IMG/VR virus record: IMGVR_UViG_3300006076_000027
Coordinates: 1 to 24,258 of that record
Strand: one strand, 5' to 3'
Length of the DNA stretch: 24,258 bases
Origin: a virus
Part shown: piece after piece, positions 194 through 18,955 of the stretch
Numbering within the stretch: the stretch's first letter is position 1
Layout: every line of letters begins with the position of its first letter
The notes under the pieces: generated by a model
What the model was told of the DNA's origin: nothing
Databases searched by the model: none
What the model saw: the letters and a program-made list of their open reading frames with translations, nothing else
Position numbers and translations under genes: made by a program

Positions 194-400
194 TTAACCT
201 CTCTTGCGAAGGAAACCCCATACAATCGAAATACCGAGAATTGTGACTGCAAGACCAATCATAGCAGTACCTGCGTTGGTAATAGATGTATTTGCATCAG
301 ATAAATCCACATCTACAGTATCAGCCATCGCAGCAGTTGCTAAAAATGCGGAAGTAGAAACAAAAAGAGCCTTAGACTTAAGTTTATTGAAGATTTTCAT
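194..400 (-). CDS. Filamentous phage major coat protein precursor
   Basis: This 68-residue protein has the architecture of the inovirus major coat protein (gp8 type). Residues 1-26 form a Sec signal peptide: a Lys-rich start, a hydrophobic core and an A-M-A cleavage site. The predicted mature chain of 42 residues has an acidic amphipathic N-terminus (DTVDVDLSDAN), one membrane helix (about residues 42-62) and a basic C-terminus (FLRKRG) that would contact DNA inside the virion. The start has a strong AGGAGGAGATT ribosome binding site. The gene lies between the ssDNA-binding-like gene and the Zot fragment, the expected order for a filamentous phage. The function call rests on architecture and position rather than sequence identity. 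Confidence 0.85.
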   Translation of the reverse strand: MKIFNKLKSKALFVSTSAFLATAAMADTVDVDLSDANTSITNAGTAMIGLAVTILGISIVWGFLRKRG

Positions 401-986: not shown

Positions 987-1973
987 TTAAGTAACCTGCT
1001 TATGTTCCGTATCAGAGAAAAGAACTGATTGGACAGCCTCACCCAATGCAATAGCTTCATTAAGTTTTTCGACATATTTATCCTCTTTTGTTTTCAGACT
1101 GTCAAAGATTTGCTGTGTCACATTTTTGGCAACTCTCGGTTTAACCGTTACATAGCGTTGCGTAATCTTTGTATCTGAGTGACCCAACATATAGGAAACT
1201 TCAATGAGTGGTAATTGAAGCTCATTGACAGCATAAGAGCCGACAAGGTGGCGGACAGCGTGAAGCTTGATATAGTCAAGTCCGGCACGGTCTAATAGAC
1301 GCTTCCACGGTTTACGTAGATCAGAGAAAGGCTTTCCGGTGTTAGGGTTTTTGAATACATAGCCAGTAAGGAATATTGTTCCCTGCTCATCAACTGCCCG
1401 TAACTGGTACTCTTTCAAACGTTCAACCATTAGATCAGTCAATTCAAAAGCAAGGTTTTTACGGCTTTTGTTTTGTTGTGCAGGAAAGTACACCAAACGG
1501 TTTGGCAAATCGATAAATTCCCATTTCAGGTTAAGCACCTCTCCCAACCGGCGACCGTGGAGGAGGAAAAGGAAAATATCTTTATAGATTGGCTCATCGA
1601 AGTTTTTGATAGCCATAAGATATTTTTTTTGAAGTTCAAGAGGGATATTAATATAGTACTTATTATCAAAATTTGGAAGCTCGACCATTGAAGGATAGTT
1701 TTTCCCGTTGTACCAATCGCTCTTGATAGCGAATTTGTAAACACCGCTCATTACTGATATAATATTCTTTACGGTTTTTGGTTTCTTACCCGAAGTGGTC
1801 AGGGAATTCGCAAAGCGTTGCCAGTCGACATAAGTCAGTGTGTCGATATGTCTATAACCAAATCGCAACTCAATATGTGTTTTGTAGGCAGAGATATAAG
1901 AGCGAATAACATGAGGTGCTAAGTTTGGGGTTTTTAGCTCGATGTAGGCATCAAAGATAGTGTTAAGTTTCAT
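987..1973 (-). CDS. int: Tyrosine recombinase / phage integrase
   Basis: This 328-residue site-specific tyrosine recombinase has an N-terminal SAM-like DNA-binding region (about 1-100) and a catalytic domain (about 110-290). The full catalytic set is visible: Arg142 in RLGEVLNL, H238-x-x-R241, His265 in LGHSDTKIT, and nucleophile Tyr274 in TQRYV. It would cut and join phage and host attachment sites through a covalent tyrosine intermediate. ATG follows TTAGGAGCGACCC. A palindromic operator (1987-2003) sits immediately upstream of that ribosome binding site, so transcription is probably repressed by a regulator binding there, presumably the divergent HTH protein. Length and motifs suggest an intact enzyme. 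It belongs to the filamentous element, not to the Mu-like phage, which would use a DDE transposase. Confidence 0.93.
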   Translation of the reverse strand: MKLNTIFDAYIELKTPNLAPHVIRSYISAYKTHIELRFGYRHIDTLTYVDWQRFANSLTTSGKKPKTVKNIISVMSGVYKFAIKSDWYNGKNYPSMVELPNFDNKYYINIPLELQKKYLMAIKNFDEPIYKDIFLFLLHGRRLGEVLNLKWEFIDLPNRLVYFPAQQNKSRKNLAFELTDLMVERLKEYQLRAVDEQGTIFLTGYVFKNPNTGKPFSDLRKPWKRLLDRAGLDYIKLHAVRHLVGSYAVNELQLPLIEVSYMLGHSDTKITQRYVTVKPRVAKNVTQQIFDSLKTKEDKYVEKLNEAIALGEAVQSVLFSDTEHKQVT

Positions 1974-2798: not shown

Positions 2799-3890
2799 CT
2801 AAAGCTTTACAAGATCAATAAATATATCATTCAGTAATTGTCCCGTTATGTTGGTTTTTTTTAGCTTTATGTTCTTGCTATTTTTGTCTTTTTTGAATGA
2901 TACTCTACCATCTCTGTCTATATGTATATTGCCATGTATCTCATTCCATAGTTTGTTGGAAAACCATTCTGTGCCTACTATGGCATATAATGCAGCTGCA
3001 GCGTCCCATACACAGTCTCTGTCTTCTATTTTTGCGTGTGAGCCATACATTGCACTTAGTATCATTGCCATTGGACTCTCTGTTTTGTAGTGTTGATACT
3101 GTTTGTATACATCTGTTGGAGAGCAACCGGCATCTTCATCCAGAAGCACAACCGGTACAGGTGAAATATTAATTGTATTTCTTGCTGCTTTGACTGCAGC
3201 TGGATGATATTTTCCAAAAGCCCCAAAATTCATGTCCCATCGGCTCTTGTCTTTTAGTCCTCCCACCAAGACAATCTTGTCTACCTTCTCTCTCACAAGT
3301 TCAATGCCGTGGCAGCGGGTTGTCTCTTTAAATAATTGATCAATATTGTAGCAATTACCAGCGACTACAATAGTAATTTTTCGCTCAGATGACGAGAGTA
3401 TTCTGCAATACATATCTATCGCATCTTCTCTCATATCATCAGTTATCCCATCGTTATTGAATTCTGACACATCTCTCCCCTGCCCTGTATAGAGCTTTGA
3501 TAGTTTTGGATAGTTACTGAAGGGGGATGGCTGCACCCTTGTGTCTTTTCTTTTTGATATACTTATTGGTACATCCTCTCTTCCATAGTAGTAGAGAATA
3601 GAAGATATGGCGATCGATCTCTTGTTGTGTGTATCGATTCCACTTAACGCAACCCCTGTCAACCCTACTTTTCCGAGTTTTTCGAGTGCAATAATTGCTG
3701 ATAATGATTGTGCTATATCGTTGTCTCCAAGCGCGTCGTCATCAAAAATGATCTGTTTAACTGATACAGTTGTGTTCTTCTCTACTTCTTGTTTGTAGCT
3801 TTCTGTTTTTGTGGTCTTGTCGTAGTTAGTGCATGCGCTAAAGATATATACCGCAATGATTAATACAAGCGCTATAATTGATTTTTTCAT
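2799..3890 (-). CDS. Nucleoside-hydrolase-superfamily lipoprotein (phage cargo)
   Basis: Residues 1-20 form a lipoprotein signal with lipobox F-S-A-C20, so the mature protein should be membrane-anchored facing the periplasm. The remainder resembles the inosine-uridine nucleoside hydrolase (IunH) superfamily. IIFDDDALGDNDIA (residues 47-60) matches the calcium-binding D-x-D-x-x-x-D-D loop, with Asn57 where Asp is usual. VVAGNCYNI (175-183) resembles the conserved GPLTNI strand, MNFGAFGKYHPAA carries Asn221, and VWDAAAALY supplies the C-terminal Asp296. Such enzymes cut the N-glycosidic bond of nucleosides, and some relatives act on other ribosides. The ATG is three bases past the stop of the fibre-associated gene with an AGGAGCC ribosome binding site, so it is co-transcribed with the late tail genes. 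Activity is uncertain because of the Asn57 change. Confidence 0.75.
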   Translation of the reverse strand: MKKSIIALVLIIAVYIFSACTNYDKTTKTESYKQEVEKNTTVSVKQIIFDDDALGDNDIAQSLSAIIALEKLGKVGLTGVALSGIDTHNKRSIAISSILYYYGREDVPISISKRKDTRVQPSPFSNYPKLSKLYTGQGRDVSEFNNDGITDDMREDAIDMYCRILSSSERKITIVVAGNCYNIDQLFKETTRCHGIELVREKVDKIVLVGGLKDKSRWDMNFGAFGKYHPAAVKAARNTINISPVPVVLLDEDAGCSPTDVYKQYQHYKTESPMAMILSAMYGSHAKIEDRDCVWDAAAALYAIVGTEWFSNKLWNEIHGNIHIDRDGRVSFKKDKNSKNIKLKKTNITGQLLNDIFIDLVKL

Positions 3891-3893
3891 TGT

Positions 3894-4487
3894 TTAGGCT
3901 CCTATCCCAAATTTCGTTTTAATGTCAGCAATAACTTCCGGCGTAATGTCCACCGCTTCAACTGCCTCTGCAGCATCAAGCATCTGATCTGCTCTGTCAT
4001 CGTCCGCTTCTATCATCTGCTCAATCATCGAGCGGATAGCGTTTAGCATTAAATTTACCGCTGCTACTTTCGCCTTTGCCGCTTCATTTGCAGCGATAAT
4101 CGATTGGTTGGTAGCATCATCAAAGAAGCCTTTGAGCGCCTGTTGATACAAAGCTTCATAGCTGTTGTACTGCTCACCGATAGCCTTGTCCTCGACCATA
4201 TATGGCTTGTCAATCGCTATTTTTTTTAATCCGTTTGCTTTTTGTGCAAAGATGATTTGGAGCCGGCTGTATCGCCCCTGCTTTTTTGAAGCGGTTGCGG
4301 CTTCTGTGTCTCCCTCAACCCACTCCGATCCATTCCACCTTGATAGGTGTAGCCCGTCTGGGACAGTTTCTTTGATTAGATTATCTGTGATGTCATACGT
4401 CTCCCTGCCGCTTTCGTCTATCGTAGGCTCAAGTACGACATCTTCGATAAAGTACCCATCCTTGTCTATTTTTCTAAATATTCTCAT
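3894..4487 (-). CDS. Tail fibre-associated / fibre assembly protein
   Basis: This 197-residue protein directly follows the receptor-binding fibre gene. It begins MRIFRKIDKDGYFIED and has the short beta-rich N-terminal segment seen in many tail fibre assembly proteins, including a DGLHLSRWNGSEWVEG stretch (about residues 43-58). The C-terminal half (about 95-197) is helical and Ala/Asp-rich. Proteins in this position commonly help the fibre trimer fold or attach, like Tfa, and this is an inference from position and general layout. Ribosome binding site GAGGAGTCATT. Confidence 0.6.
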   Translation of the reverse strand: MRIFRKIDKDGYFIEDVVLEPTIDESGRETYDITDNLIKETVPDGLHLSRWNGSEWVEGDTEAATASKKQGRYSRLQIIFAQKANGLKKIAIDKPYMVEDKAIGEQYNSYEALYQQALKGFFDDATNQSIIAANEAAKAKVAAVNLMLNAIRSMIEQMIEADDDRADQMLDAAEAVEAVDITPEVIADIKTKFGIGA

Positions 4488-4499
4488 AATGACTCCTCA

Positions 4500-5495
4500 T
4501 TAATATCTTTTGAATTCACATTTGAAGTAGTAATGGTAGTCTCCTACCGTTCTTGTATAGACTTTGCCATCAGTGCCAATTTTTGTTGGAACGAAATACC
4601 CGTTTCTCGTCGTGTCAGTTTCGCACCATGTTGCAGCATTTGGTCTTAGGCCAACGGGAAGCGTACATACCTGTCTATTGTCATATCCACTTGAACCGGA
4701 TGCATTACGTATCGCTGCTCTTATAGCAACTGTGCCGTCTTTATATTTCTTGTACTGACAGTATCCTGTCCAGTCGTTAATCAAAGTTAGATCAATCCAC
4801 CCCGTCTCTGTTTTCATCATTGCGATTTTCATCCATGGGGTCCAAGCATTGTTGTATCGACTTCGCACATACATATCTGCCCCACCATTGTATTGCACAG
4901 CAATCTGCCTGCAGTTCTCTGATGCGGAGTACCATTGTGTGTCGATATGCCAAAAGTGTGCCGTGTCAGGAGTGTTTGCATGATTGGACAAGATATGCAC
5001 ATGATCGGGGGCTGCTTTTGCTACGATGTTTGGATCGATGTTTGATGGTGTAGTTGATTCCGAAAAGAGCGAGTTTTTGTAGGAGCCTATTGTTGCGACG
5101 GGGTCTCCGCTTTTTGTCAAGTTCCCGCTCACTTCTAAGTCGCCCGTGATCGTGCCACCTGTCTTAAGCAGCCAGTCATCCGTATATTGGTACCAATCAT
5201 TAGACGGCGGTGTGGTCGAGTTGCTGTCAACTAAAGATATAAATAAAAATCCGTCTTTTACTACAACATCCCCTTTTGCATATGTTCCCGCATTCCAACT
5301 TCCACGAAAATTACTAAGATCAAGCAGTTTATTGCTCCATCCTAATGCGTCACATATTTTAGGAAATGCTTGAAGAAGCCACGGGTACAATGACTCTGCC
5401 TCCCATGTTCTAAACTCAAGACACTTCTGCCTGTCTGTTACACTTGGTGCTACAAGTGGTGGTTGCTGTGATATATCTGGTATACAATTTGCCAT
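4500..5495 (-). CDS. Receptor-binding tail fibre / tip protein
   Basis: This 331-residue protein is built like a phage adhesin. Residues 63-103 (FRGSWNAGTYAKGD, then a W-Y pair) match the CBM5/12-like chitin or carbohydrate-binding fold. Residues 109-126 (LLKTGGTITGDLEVSGNL) form the repeat-like segment that precedes fibre tips. About 180-225 (HFWHIDTQWYS to WTPWMKI) resemble the pyocin-knob domain found in pyocin and phage fibres. The C-terminal 100 residues form a separate beta-rich head that should contact the host surface. The Cys-containing N-terminus may attach to the distal tail. Host range is probably set here. Ribosome binding site AAAGGAGTAGAAA. Confidence 0.78.
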   Translation of the reverse strand: MANCIPDISQQPPLVAPSVTDRQKCLEFRTWEAESLYPWLLQAFPKICDALGWSNKLLDLSNFRGSWNAGTYAKGDVVVKDGFLFISLVDSNSTTPPSNDWYQYTDDWLLKTGGTITGDLEVSGNLTKSGDPVATIGSYKNSLFSESTTPSNIDPNIVAKAAPDHVHILSNHANTPDTAHFWHIDTQWYSASENCRQIAVQYNGGADMYVRSRYNNAWTPWMKIAMMKTETGWIDLTLINDWTGYCQYKKYKDGTVAIRAAIRNASGSSGYDNRQVCTLPVGLRPNAATWCETDTTRNGYFVPTKIGTDGKVYTRTVGDYHYYFKCEFKRY

Positions 5496-5509: not shown

Positions 5510-6487
5510 TTAGTGTTCTGTGCCCACACATTCAAATCCAATAGTGGTGTATTGTGATCCAAATGTGTAGGTTATATCGTTTGCTATTCCGAGCACGAGC
5601 CCAGACTTAACAGCATCCCTCTCATCAAAAAGATAATAATTAAGCCAGGACCCATGCTTTCCAAACTCTTTTCTGTGCTGATCTACATCTGTCTCATCAA
5701 GCCTAAGCGTTCCTCTCATTCGTGTTTTTCTGTTTGCATGATATATCCCCGTTGCGCGAAGTGTCGGATAATCATAGCTTTGCGTCGGTGTGCTGTCTAT
5801 TATCTGGAAGCCTTTTGCTGCGCATCCGAGATTAAACTCTTTTGCGACAACCATCGTTCCTATTTTGATTGGTAGGTTTGCATCTGACTTTGTGATAGTG
5901 ACTTTGATCTTGTAAAGCTGTTCACATCGCTCTTTTGGTATCCGTATTGCGAAACTGTCTTGTGCAATTGGATCCGGGTTACAACACGAAAAACAGTCAA
6001 AATTATCATCATACGTCATAGTCGCGACACTCTCCAGCTCATTACAGCTATCACAGTCAAACAGATCTGTAATAACGTTACCATTGAAGTCAAAGTATTC
6101 AAAAAAAACCTCTTTTGCGTTTTCTATCCCGCGACCAAGAAGGTGTGTCATTCCTGCAACATTAAACTCTAACTCACATGTATTGCTAAAGATTGATTGA
6201 GAACTGAAGACAGGGTCAAGCATCTTGTACGGGTTTGCACCCTCCCCAAACCAGTCTCGAGAAATTGGCGGGTAACCTTGCGGATTGTCTTTTTTCGCTT
6301 TGTAATTCATTTGAAGTGCTGGAATTTTTACGACATCAAGGAAATTGTATGTAGCATTTTCATCCCACGTAGGTACACTGTCAGCGTCTGCGGTAGAACT
6401 TATAAGGTTCCCAAAAAAAAGCTGTTTATAGATATCGTTGTTGTACATCGTTATAAACTGTGCTCTGGGTATTCTTAGTAGTTTCAT
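5510..6487 (-). CDS. Distal tail / tail tip protein with a possible zinc-ribbon insert
   Basis: This 325-residue protein is encoded directly after the tape measure, where siphophages place distal tail (Dit) and tip proteins. Its ATG overlaps the tape measure stop by four bases (ATGA), so the two are translationally coupled. I do not recognise a definite family. The N-terminal region has a W-x-x-N-A-T-Y-x-x-x-D-V-V-K pattern (residues 41-54) resembling carbohydrate-binding modules of fibres. A C145-x2-C148, C165-x2-C168-C169 pattern looks like a metal-binding ribbon inserted in the middle. The C-terminal 100 residues (R-x-T-R-M-R-G-T-L-R-L then beta strands) could be the ring-forming part. Confidence 0.55.
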   Translation of the reverse strand: MKLLRIPRAQFITMYNNDIYKQLFFGNLISSTADADSVPTWDENATYNFLDVVKIPALQMNYKAKKDNPQGYPPISRDWFGEGANPYKMLDPVFSSQSIFSNTCELEFNVAGMTHLLGRGIENAKEVFFEYFDFNGNVITDLFDCDSCNELESVATMTYDDNFDCFSCCNPDPIAQDSFAIRIPKERCEQLYKIKVTITKSDANLPIKIGTMVVAKEFNLGCAAKGFQIIDSTPTQSYDYPTLRATGIYHANRKTRMRGTLRLDETDVDQHRKEFGKHGSWLNYYLFDERDAVKSGLVLGIANDITYTFGSQYTTIGFECVGTEH

Positions 6488-15848: not shown

Positions 15849-15938
15849 ACCTACATAATCGCGCTTCTTCATGCCACTATATGCCTTGGTTTTACCCCCT
15901 GTTTTTGCGTACACTTGTCGGCAAAAACAAGGCAGCAA

Positions 15939-17009
15939 ATGAAAAGAAAGCTCGTCATAAAAAGCGGCAGCGGCAGCCGGCAGAAGATCGTCGGTGAGGA
16001 TGCGCTTATAGAGGATGTAAAACTGGTAGAGCCCTTTTTGGACTACAGCGCGCTGCGCACGCTATACGCCTCAAACGTCTATCATCAGCGCTCACTCAAG
16101 CTCAAGGCCATGCTGCTTAGCCACATCGAAGAGAGTACGCTAAGCGAACATCTGCCCGACGGGGTTACTGCAAAAAAGTTCCTATACAAGTTTATGCTCA
16201 ACGCAGAGACCTACGGCTCGGCATTCTTTGAGCGAAGCGCCACGATCGCAGGCAGATTCAAACTCTACAATCTTGGCAGCTACCATGCACGGGTGGACAA
16301 AGAAGATACGATCTATCAGCTGGTAGGCACAGAGCAGATACCGCTTGAGGGTGCGCACTTTATGTATGACACCATCCTCTCCGATTTTTACGGAGAACCC
16401 GACTACACAGCAGCGATCAACCAGATCGTCACCATCTACAAAGCAGACCGCTACAACGAAGCCTTTTTTGACAATGGCGCCAAACCCGATCACGCCATCA
16501 TCTTTGAAGACAGCGATCCTTCGGATGAGCAGCTAAACGCCATCACGGAGTACTACCGCAAAGAGTTTCGAGGCTACAAAAATGCACACAAAACCCTCAT
16601 CCTCACCACAGGTGAAGGCAACGGGGAGACAAAACCGAAAATTCGCATAGAGGAGCTTGGCAAGGTCGAGGATCTCAGTTTTGAGAAGCTGAAGAAAGTA
16701 GGAAGAGACGAGATCATCGCCGCACACGGTGTGCCGCCGCGCCTTGTGGGGGTGGTCGACCCCAACGCGCTTGGCGGAGGCGGAGAGCTGATCAGCCAGC
16801 TGCATATGTTCAACGAGATCTCCATCAAACCCAAAATGGCGATGATCGAGGAGTTTTTCGGCGCGCACGGCATCGCGCTCAAGCTCAAAGAGTTCGATGC
16901 CACCGCGTTCAAGGACGATGCGGATGTGGTCACGGGGCTGGTGAGTGCGGGCATCCTCACCCCAGCGGAGGCAAAATCGGTCATGGGATGGAGTCAAAGT
17001 GGCAATTAA
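15939..17009 (+). CDS. Portal protein
   Basis: This is a portal of the P2 gpQ/PBSX type, 356 residues from the ATG at 15,939. A TTG eight codons earlier is in frame but has no ribosome binding site, whereas ATG follows AAGG with good spacing. Recognisable features are the N-terminal DYSALRTLYASNVYHQRSLKLKA region, the Y-G-S-A-F-F-E motif near residue 97, the DAFYGEP-like D-F-Y-G-E-P stretch, and the VPPRLVGV and GGGGELISQLHMFNE motifs (about 260-290). It would form the dodecameric DNA channel at the capsid vertex and dock the terminase. It is transcribed opposite to the capsid operon, from the same short intergenic region. Confidence 0.88.
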   Translation: MKRKLVIKSGSGSRQKIVGEDALIEDVKLVEPFLDYSALRTLYASNVYHQRSLKLKAMLLSHIEESTLSEHLPDGVTAKKFLYKFMLNAETYGSAFFERSATIAGRFKLYNLGSYHARVDKEDTIYQLVGTEQIPLEGAHFMYDTILSDFYGEPDYTAAINQIVTIYKADRYNEAFFDNGAKPDHAIIFEDSDPSDEQLNAITEYYRKEFRGYKNAHKTLILTTGEGNGETKPKIRIEELGKVEDLSFEKLKKVGRDEIIAAHGVPPRLVGVVDPNALGGGGELISQLHMFNEISIKPKMAMIEEFFGAHGIALKLKEFDATAFKDDADVVTGLVSAGILTPAEAKSVMGWSQSGN

Positions 17010-18609
17010 AAAAGAGAAAAAGCAGCGCATCCTGATGCTGGTCGATGCCGGCATTCCCGCGGCAGAGGTCGCCAAAGATGAGGGGGTAAGCAAAGGCACC
17101 ATCTACGCATGGCTGCGCAAACGCAAAGCACAAGGAAAAGAGGACACCCCCGGTACCATAGCACAGATCAAAAAACAGCTGCAGGTACTCTCTAGGCGCA
17201 AACCCACCGAAGCGGTCAGCCGCAAGATCGCCATGCTCACCGCCGCACTATCACGGCTGGAACGCAGCCACGACAAAGCCCAAAAGCGCAAAGCCCAAAG
17301 CCTTGTCAAGCCATTCATTACCGATATCACCTCCAACGAGGAGGCAAACACCCTGCGCAGCCGTGCGCTGCTTGGTGAGTATGGCGAACTCTACGCCTAC
17401 CAAAGAGAGTTTCTCTCCTGCAACGACCAGTTCAGGCTGGTACTCAAGTCCAGACAGATAGGCTTCTCCTATGTCGCCGCACTCGATGCACTCATCGCAG
17501 CGGTGGCGGGCAGAAACCAGCTCTTTCTCTCTGCATCCGAAGAGCAGGCACTTATTTTGATGCGTTATGTCGAACACTGGGCGGGCAAGATGGGCATTGT
17601 CTTTAGCACGGACAAAGACAACGAAAAGCGCCTTAGCAACGGCGCCATCATCAAAGCGATGGCAAACAACTTCAGAACCGTACAGGGCTTTACCGGGGAC
17701 ATCTGGATGGACGAGTTCGCCTGGTACCAAAACCCCAAAAAGATATGGCTTGCCTTTGTGCCGAGTATCGGTGCGGTACAGGGACGCTTTACGGTCATGT
17801 CCACCCCGTTTGAGGAGAACTCGCTCTTTTACGATCTGTGTACCGACGAAGAGAAGTACTACATGTTTACCCGCTTTCGTGTCGACATCTACCGTGCGAT
17901 GGAGGACGGGCTGCGCTTTGATCTGGAGACGATGCGCGCACTCTTTGATGCAGACACCTGGGCGAGTGCCTACGAGTGCCAGTTTATCGACGACGAGAGT
18001 GCGCTCTTTAGTATCGCGCTGATCAAAAGCTGTGTCGATCCCTCACTGCGCTACTACTCGCCGCCAAAAAGCGCTGTACTCTTCAGCGGATATGACATCG
18101 GTCGAAGCGCACACCGCTCCGCGCTGGCGGCGCTGCTGCTGACAGAGCACACCAAGCGCTATGAGCTGTGCAAGATGGAGGTGCTCGCCAAAGCTTCGTT
18201 CGATGAGCAGCGGCTGCTTATAGACCAGTTCATGACCCTGCATCCGCTCGCACAGATACGCATCGACCGCACCGGTATCGGTATGGATCTTGCCGAGGGG
18301 ATGACCAAGCGCTACAAAGCGCGCGCCAAAGGCGTACACTTCACCGCCACAGCCAAAGAGGCGATGGCGCTCAACCTCAAAAAGATGTTTGAAGATCAGA
18401 GCATTGTCATCCCCAACGATCCGCTGCTCATTGCCGACATTCACGCCATCAAGCGAAAAGCGGGCGCAAGAGGGTTTTTGTACGACTCCAAACAGAACGA
18501 ACACGGACACGCCGACCGCTTCTGGGCGCTTGCGCTTGCGGCAAGCCATGTCGAGGCGATAGAGCGCAAAAAAAGCAAAAAAGGAAGAGGCATTGTCATC
18601 AGAAACTAA
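16999..18609 (+). CDS. Terminase large subunit with N-terminal HTH
   Basis: Starting at GTG 16,999 with GGAG ribosome binding site, overlapping the portal stop by 11 bases, this protein is 536 residues. Residues 19-42 form a recruited HTH (AAEVAKDEGVSKGTIYAWLR), as in gpP-type terminases that carry a small-subunit-like DNA-binding head. The ATPase has a degenerate Walker A K150-S-R-Q-I-G-F-S157 and Walker B DIWMDE (234-239). The C-terminal nuclease carries acidic residues D366 (SGYDIGRS), D423 (RIDRTGIG) and D506 (GHADRFW). Together these drive DNA packaging and cleavage. No separate small terminase gene is seen nearby. Confidence 0.93.
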   Translation: MAIKKEKKQRILMLVDAGIPAAEVAKDEGVSKGTIYAWLRKRKAQGKEDTPGTIAQIKKQLQVLSRRKPTEAVSRKIAMLTAALSRLERSHDKAQKRKAQSLVKPFITDITSNEEANTLRSRALLGEYGELYAYQREFLSCNDQFRLVLKSRQIGFSYVAALDALIAAVAGRNQLFLSASEEQALILMRYVEHWAGKMGIVFSTDKDNEKRLSNGAIIKAMANNFRTVQGFTGDIWMDEFAWYQNPKKIWLAFVPSIGAVQGRFTVMSTPFEENSLFYDLCTDEEKYYMFTRFRVDIYRAMEDGLRFDLETMRALFDADTWASAYECQFIDDESALFSIALIKSCVDPSLRYYSPPKSAVLFSGYDIGRSAHRSALAALLLTEHTKRYELCKMEVLAKASFDEQRLLIDQFMTLHPLAQIRIDRTGIGMDLAEGMTKRYKARAKGVHFTATAKEAMALNLKKMFEDQSIVIPNDPLLIADIHAIKRKAGARGFLYDSKQNEHGHADRFWALALAASHVEAIERKKSKKGRGIVIRN

Positions 18610-18955
18610 AGCGCGGATCTACGCAGGCTGCATCATGGTAGCGCGAGGAGACGGCAACGTGATGATTGTAACGGACTTCGTCTACCGCAACATCAAAGTG
18701 CCCGCCGGCTATGTCACCAACGGCGCAAACATACCTAGGATCTTTTGGAGCGTCATCCCGCCCTTTTCGCCCCAGCTGCTGCCGGCTGTCATCGTGCACG
18801 ACTACCTATGCGACAAAGAGGCGTATGCGCTTGCGGACAAAGCCTTTGAGCGGATACTGCGCGAACTGGAGGTATCTGTATGGAAACGGGTGGTGATGGT
18901 GTGTGCGGTGAAGTGGTACCACCGTGTCAGGTACGCTGTGAAGCAAAAGCGCTAA
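18593..18955 (+). CDS. DUF1353 family phage protein
   Basis: This 120-residue protein overlaps the terminase stop, starting at TTG (18,593) behind AAGGAAGAGG. It has the DUF1353 core: Y-V-T-N-G-A-N-I-P-R-I-F-W (residues about 40-52) followed by P-A-V-I-V-H-D-Y-L-C (about 64-73). DUF1353 proteins are common in tailed phages and may be linked to tail or lysis functions, but their activity is not known. The HD in VHDYLC could bind a metal. The protein ends before the terminator at 19,021-19,051. Confidence 0.8.
   Translation: MSSETKARIYAGCIMVARGDGNVMIVTDFVYRNIKVPAGYVTNGANIPRIFWSVIPPFSPQLLPAVIVHDYLCDKEAYALADKAFERILRELEVSVWKRVVMVCAVKWYHRVRYAVKQKR

Follow-up and report, generated by a model that had tools for sequence, protein, structure and literature searches.

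A predicted nucleoside-hydrolase-fold lipoprotein encoded at the right end of a Mu-like Sulfurovum-type phage

The DNA under study, hereafter the window, is a 24,258-nucleotide stretch of viral sequence in which a lipoprotein gene follows the tail fibre genes. We propose, with a probability of roughly 40%, that this gene is a 'moron', an accessory gene that a transposable (Mu-like) Sulfurovum-type phage carries at its extreme right end, and that the gene product is an exported riboside hydrolase with a predicted nucleoside hydrolase (NH) fold. As the final gene of the fibre operon, it would be made late. The product would then be exported and lipid-anchored, and the Thr at position +2, which by the E. 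coli rule means outer-membrane sorting, would direct it to the outer membrane. It may act as a calcium-dependent riboside (N-glycoside) hydrolase with a putatively rebuilt metal site, in which Ile59 stands at the Asp15 equivalent and Asp56 and Asp86 are invariant in all eight aligned sequences. In a weaker step of the proposal, the protein might so change the envelope or periplasm of its host during infection that neither further phage nor released progeny engage the cell, much like T5 Llp but with an NH domain of enzyme size.

NHs are generally regarded as salvage enzymes. In the present case the fold is predicted to be exported and lipid-anchored, and phages of chemosynthetic, sulfur-oxidising Campylobacterota carry it. 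If active, the protein would give phages a new means of changing the host envelope, or would be a salvage step new to phages.

The phage right end and its last gene

The NH-fold lipoprotein gene (2799-3890, minus strand) starts with ATG and encodes 363 residues, with the lipobox pattern LIIAVYIFSAC placing the predicted lipid anchor at Cys20. A signal peptide with a lipobox Cys was present as a pattern in all five close sequences, the window protein included. The start of the gene lies three bases past the stop of a fibre-associated gene (3894-4487, minus strand; phrog_1766 tail fiber protein, E=5e-5), and a gene for a tail fibre or minor tail protein is found at 4500-5495 on the same strand (phrog_3639, E=1.2e-8). 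Both the lipobox and the three-base spacing had been described in the earlier note, and both were confirmed by the translation and the ORF coordinates. The GC content of the gene was 0.386, which was under the phage mean of 0.487.

The earlier note had also taken the gene to be phage-encoded. Downstream of it, the window aligned with the prophages of two Sulfurovum MAGs, G001 (L003) and G002 (L004), up to ...TACTTACA, and the three diverged immediately beyond. A fourth prophage, in G071 (L022), ends ...TGTGATTACGTACA. When the right terminal sequence of the window phage (2712-2798, minus strand; ending TGTGAGTACTTACA on that strand) was aligned with the L003, L004 and L022 ends, the similarity ceased directly after ...TACA, which places the right end at base 2712, common to the window and the three other prophages. 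Since this end lies to the left of the gene and not to the right of 3,890, the gene is phage-borne and the last one before the terminus. The L003 and L004 prophages carry the gene at the same locus, so the homologues are not all chromosomal. The shared terminus at 2712 also led us to reject the assumption that the gene belongs to host DNA beside the phage.

The sequence beyond the terminus (1-2711) is an AT-rich flank, outside this phage, in which the phage is inserted, with a GC content of 0.374 compared to 0.487 for the phage. It contains genes for a tyrosine integrase (987-1973, minus strand) and an inovirus-like coat protein (197-400, minus strand). The best match of the coat ORF was phrog_2186 'virion structural protein' (1.8e-6), with phrog_1646 'major coat protein' at 5.3e-5; of two Pfam matches, both under the cut-off, TrbC pilin reached 8e-4 and Inovirus coat 0.008. 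The Mu-like phage appears to be inserted in another mobile element. An ORF at 2314-2790 crosses the junction at 2712.

The window record ends short of the transposition-gene region, and GemA is present in the window. The conserved structural genes of the G002 prophage were 77-96% identical to those of the window between 11,536 and 18,609, and this prophage encodes a transposase in which the domains rve and Mu-transpos_C were matched, as well as an AAA_22/TniB-type partner. Its left end, CTGATCCCCCACA, is like that of the G071 prophage, CTGAACCCCCACA. A 19-bp direct repeat flanks the G002 prophage and none was seen around the G071 prophage by eye and script; 5 bp is the usual direct repeat for Mu. 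The portal and terminase genes (15915-18955) lie on the plus strand and the other structural genes on the minus strand, a mixed architecture accompanied by Mu-like F and GemA genes. The available text of PMC2147049 records Mu-like phages in Epsilonproteobacteria. More distant phage relatives were found in G055, G074 and G140 (tail protein 52, 33 and 31% identical, respectively); no NH gene was seen in the stretches of them that were read, in which the prophage ends are not fixed. A reverse-transcriptase-like ORF near the fibre end in G074 (L024:5372-6370) was noticed by eye and possibly belongs to a diversity-generating retroelement.

The right ends in G001, G002 and G071 are 48, 87 and 95 nt, respectively, away from ATAGAATTTATA(TTATG), and side and orientation agree in all three (right end to the chromosomal dif site: L003:5980-6045, L004:11188-11287 and L022:8962-9082). 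Counted here are the prophages with readable chromosome as right flank, three in number; the window and the distant G055, G074 and G140 are left out. The 17-base motif occurred in 70 of the 175 family genomes, mostly as one copy, and, according to the available text of PMC2731167, forms part of the dif site published for Sulfurovum NBC37-1. The G002 contig breaks within the motif; a second contig carries the full site together with the same flank. No dif-like site was detected in the window with up to three mismatches, its flank being another mobile element, and Rfam gave no match to the right-flank motif. Adjacency to dif as a general rule is disfavoured, because dif lies about 120 kb from the phage on the same contig in G074, and because the transposase, present in 10 of the 175 genomes, is on a contig other than that of dif in G004, G012 and G086. 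Possibly, this would be a dif-seeking transposable phage, with the TniB-like partner in the G002 prophage offering a parallel to Tn5053-type res-site hunters. No transposable/MuA phage or Tn5053/TniB element at dif was met in the literature searched, which included the accessible parts of PMC7350765 and PMC8987985.

The fold and the metal site

The earlier note had assigned the protein to the IunH superfamily. At the sequence level the signal was faint, and the window protein stayed below the curated cut-offs of Pfam PF01156 and of NCBIfam. Two NCBIfam matches, both far under those cut-offs, were RihA over residues 45-220 (E=7.3e-7) and RihC (2.1e-5). As a sole query, the protein had no match in Pfam, nor in a sequence search of the PDB; PF01156 was matched at E<=0.1 by four of eight members, the window protein not among them. 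A profile matched the XopQ-type chains 4kl0/4p5f at E about 0.003. An AlphaFold2 model was built from five sequences (pLDDT 68.7, pTM 0.74); its loops 117-143 and 212-227 are unreliable. With Foldseek against the PDB the best match reached E=5.6e-15, the NH match spanned residues 42-363, and all 50 matches listed were NHs or XopQ-type NH-fold effectors. The VIA comparison with 5tsq gave a Z of 25.7 and an rmsd of 3.0 over 277 aligned residues, covering 44-363, and the identity to NHs in the VIA matches was 11-20%. Among the BFVD viral structures, the five matches with E<=0.001 and a probability of 1.00 were giant-virus NHs (e.g. Satyrvirus, Tupanvirus), with no phage protein among those five. 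As judged from the model, the window protein is a lipoprotein with a predicted full-length NH fold, and the superfamily assignment holds over the whole domain; a fold of another kind is not what the structure prediction gave.

The register of the active site was taken from multiple alignments with distant relatives and with E. coli RihA/RihC. The aligned pairs were D8-D50, D10-D52, D14-D58, D15-I59 and N39-D86, followed by GPLTN-GNCYN (N182), AEFN-WDMN (D219, N221) and HD-W295 D296. The roles given are those of the aligned residues of IU-NH, in which the C-terminal metal Asp has numbering of the Asp242/261 type. The N-terminal calcium motif DxDxxxDD is incomplete in the window protein (D50-D-D52-A-L-G-D56-N-D58-I59): D50, D52 and D58 are kept, Ile59 stands where Asp15 would be, and two residues (Leu54-Gly55) are inserted in the motif. 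The C-terminal metal Asp is present as D296, and D50, D52, D56, D58, D86, N182, N221 and D296 were invariant in all eight aligned sequences. Ile occupies the Asp15 position in the window, L003, L004 and L005; the Asp is retained in L014, L011 and L012, where the acidic motif is complete. Trp295, before the metal Asp, replaces the leaving-group His of RihA/RihC. Trp260 of trypanosomal IAG-NH, which is named in a PDB title, is presumably the residue before the metal Asp261. In hhalign, five close sequences matched RihC/RihA with a probability of 57.7% (E=1e-4) and in a different local register.

The earlier note had stated that one calcium-site Asp appears to be replaced, by Asn57. One Asp is indeed lost, but the alignments place the loss at Ile59; Asp56 and Asp86 are conserved and Asn57 aligns with a variable position. 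The Asn57 reading arose because the motif with its two-residue insertion had been read ungapped, and Asn57 as the replaced ligand was ruled out by the alignments with the relatives and RihA/RihC.

Relatives and exchange of the fibre module

One scan of the species-genome collection returned three relatives, L003 (75%) and L004 (72%) from the Sulfurovum MAGs and L005 (47%) from a Nitratifractor MAG. A profile search of 175 host-family genomes matched seven, namely these three and four distant proteins (L009-L012), and an order-wide search matched 4 of 398 genomes, these being the same three and one weak N-terminal match. In viral contigs, the first scan with the window protein as a single query gave no useful match; a single relative, L014 (35%), was found, and later viral scans returned L014 again only. 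With tblastn, 50,697 phage and 72,556 plasmid records contained no match to the lipoprotein. No phage-borne NH lipoprotein was met in the literature searched, which included the accessible parts of PMC5749857, PMC12724201 and PMC6435816; the first of these, in the part available, describes a Campylobacter prophage that interrupts a host NH gene. The fibre-associated gene was absent from the viral contigs searched, and among phages it was matched in two Geobacillus phages, covering 28% of the query.

The ORF is more than a chance one, since relatives at 75, 72, 47 and 35% identity occur in four other loci and since the dN/dS values were low: 0.10 for window-L003 (dS 1.9, rough), 0.08 for window-L004 (dS 2.6, rough) and 0.18 for L003-L004 (dS 0.72). 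The values against L014 were 0.37-0.46, and those of the window, L003 and L004 against L005 were saturated. By these substitution ratios, the gene is under purifying selection.

The slot after the fibre genes varies in content. It is occupied by the NH lipoprotein gene in the window, L003 and L004, at 3, 9 and 9 nt, respectively, from the upstream fibre-associated gene; co-transcription with that gene is thus implied. In the G071 prophage, the same slot holds a 108-residue ORF (L022:9168-9494) with a hydrophobic start and no Pfam match. When L003 was compared with L004, the tape protein was 95%, the next gene 93% and the NH protein 81% identical, whereas the fibres matched only over the first 73 residues (75%), leaving tips that could not be aligned, and the fibre-associated genes did not match. 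Co-variation of the lipoprotein with the receptor-binding tip is thus absent. Between the window and L003, the NH protein was 75% identical over its full length and two fibre-module genes had no BLASTP match; the window tail protein (5510-6487, minus strand) had none to the protein encoded at the corresponding position in L003 or L004. The window and L004 fibres were 44% identical over 302 residues, so this comparison by itself is no evidence of independence. Taking the comparisons together, the NH gene is kept independently of the fibre tip. A role as a tail component was ruled out by the lipobox and by the retention of the gene when the fibre module is exchanged.

The unrelated viral contig L014 (16.5 kb) encodes a primase, a Sak4-like protein and a phrog_38 terminase, the last of these about 24-25% identical to those of the best-listed phages such as EcP1. 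Its NH gene starts with an ATG that overlaps the stop codon closing a tail-fibre gene (phrog_2712, E=1.4e-14), so that the NH gene adjoins receptor-binding or fibre genes here as in the window, L003 and L004. A small ORF without family match comes after it. The model of the L014 protein also has the NH fold (Z 23.6, 263 aligned), and no other BLASTP match to the window phage was found at E<=1e-3.

A serious rival to the envelope reading, though on the unlikely side, is that the gene is nucleoside-salvage cargo, whose anchored periplasmic product would free bases and ribose from extracellular nucleosides and feed the infected cell or the lysogen. This would suit the NH fold with its largely kept ribose and metal residues, and the retention of the gene independently of the fibre tip. 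Moreover, PF01156 was found in 2 of 175 host-family genomes compared to 5 of 14 control genomes, indicating that NHs are rare in the hosts and that the activity is mostly missing there. L005 comes from a 4-kb contig, where bacterial-looking genes flank it, and the NH protein therefore seems useful without a phage, which weighs against the envelope reading; the neighbouring ORF is phosphate-permease-like by the product name read from its translation. Nevertheless, salvage does not predict a second placement after a fibre gene in the unrelated contig L014, and it fits poorly with a gene that closes the late fibre operon and for which no separate promoter-like site was found. The loss of the Asp15 equivalent also argues against it.

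Possible roles and known systems

Altered nucleoside uptake, superinfection exclusion and lysogenic conversion, as suggested in the earlier note, are candidate roles. The envelope reading supposes an enzyme, and the enzyme could be dead, because Ile replaces the calcium ligand equivalent to Asp15 both in the window and in L003, L004 and L005. It is unlikely, but conceivable, that the protein is a catalytically inactive NH scaffold which only binds, as a receptor plug or a ligand sponge. The Trp295 in place of His would agree with such a scaffold, and the pocket is poorly seen owing to the unreliable model loops. However, the eight invariant residues, the complete acidic motif in L011, L012 and L014, and the Trp before the metal Asp that trypanosomal IAG-NH presumably shares all speak for a working site. 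A more general, enzymatic action was favoured over a receptor-matched plug because the NH gene is independent of the fibre tip, and receptor-matched exclusion was disfavoured because the L003 and L004 fibres differ while their NH proteins remain so similar.

A lysogenic conversion factor, expressed from the prophage to change the surface of the lysogen or protect it against other phages, is quite improbable. The gene does lie at the edge of the prophage, a common place for morons, and the G071 prophage has another small ORF in the same slot. However, no promoter-like or terminator-like site was found on the strand of the gene between 2600 and 5600, and the short spacing ties it to the fibre-associated gene. 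Late expression was favoured, because no promoter-like site was found and because the gene closes the fibre operon. A defence protein was rejected, the PADLOC matches being weak and part-length (orphan methyltransferase, E=0.0015; PDC-M38B, 0.0062).

The proposed late-made envelope enzyme can be extended, as a doubtful generalisation, to lipid-anchored NH-fold enzymes of unrelated phages that are sited behind fibre genes and late in infection would remove or mask a riboside-bearing surface or periplasmic ligand. Such enzymes, which would have a reorganised calcium site and act on a new substrate, might form an undescribed class of receptor-destroying phage enzymes.

Compared with the known NHs (IU_nuc_hydro PF01156; E. 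coli RihA/RihC; trypanosomatid IU-NH and IAG-NH), the predicted fold is alike over 42-363 (Z about 25), and family positions align with D50/D52/D58, N182, N221 and D296. The window protein differs from them in being a lipoprotein, in the motif insertion, and in the changes of Asp15 to Ile, His to Trp and Asn39 to Asp86. XopQ-type effectors likewise use the NH fold outside plain metabolism; the similarity is only distant, and they have other carriers and no lipobox. The giant-virus NHs share the fold with the window protein, but belong to viruses of eukaryotes. In the transposable phage Mu, the accessory gene mom comes last at the right end, past the tail-fibre genes, and encodes a DNA-modifying enzyme; the NH gene has the same position, whereas its product is predicted to be an exported lipoprotein. 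By position, the closest functional parallel would be T5 llp. According to the available text of PMC9586334, this gene directly follows pb5, the gene for the receptor-binding protein, on its downstream side, and its product is a periplasmic lipoprotein that acts in exclusion. As with T5 Llp/Cor, a phage lipoprotein gene directly follows a receptor-binding or tail-fibre gene. However, Llp and Cor are small binding proteins, whereas the window protein has a 340-residue enzyme fold and, unlike them, its gene is kept when the fibre tip changes.
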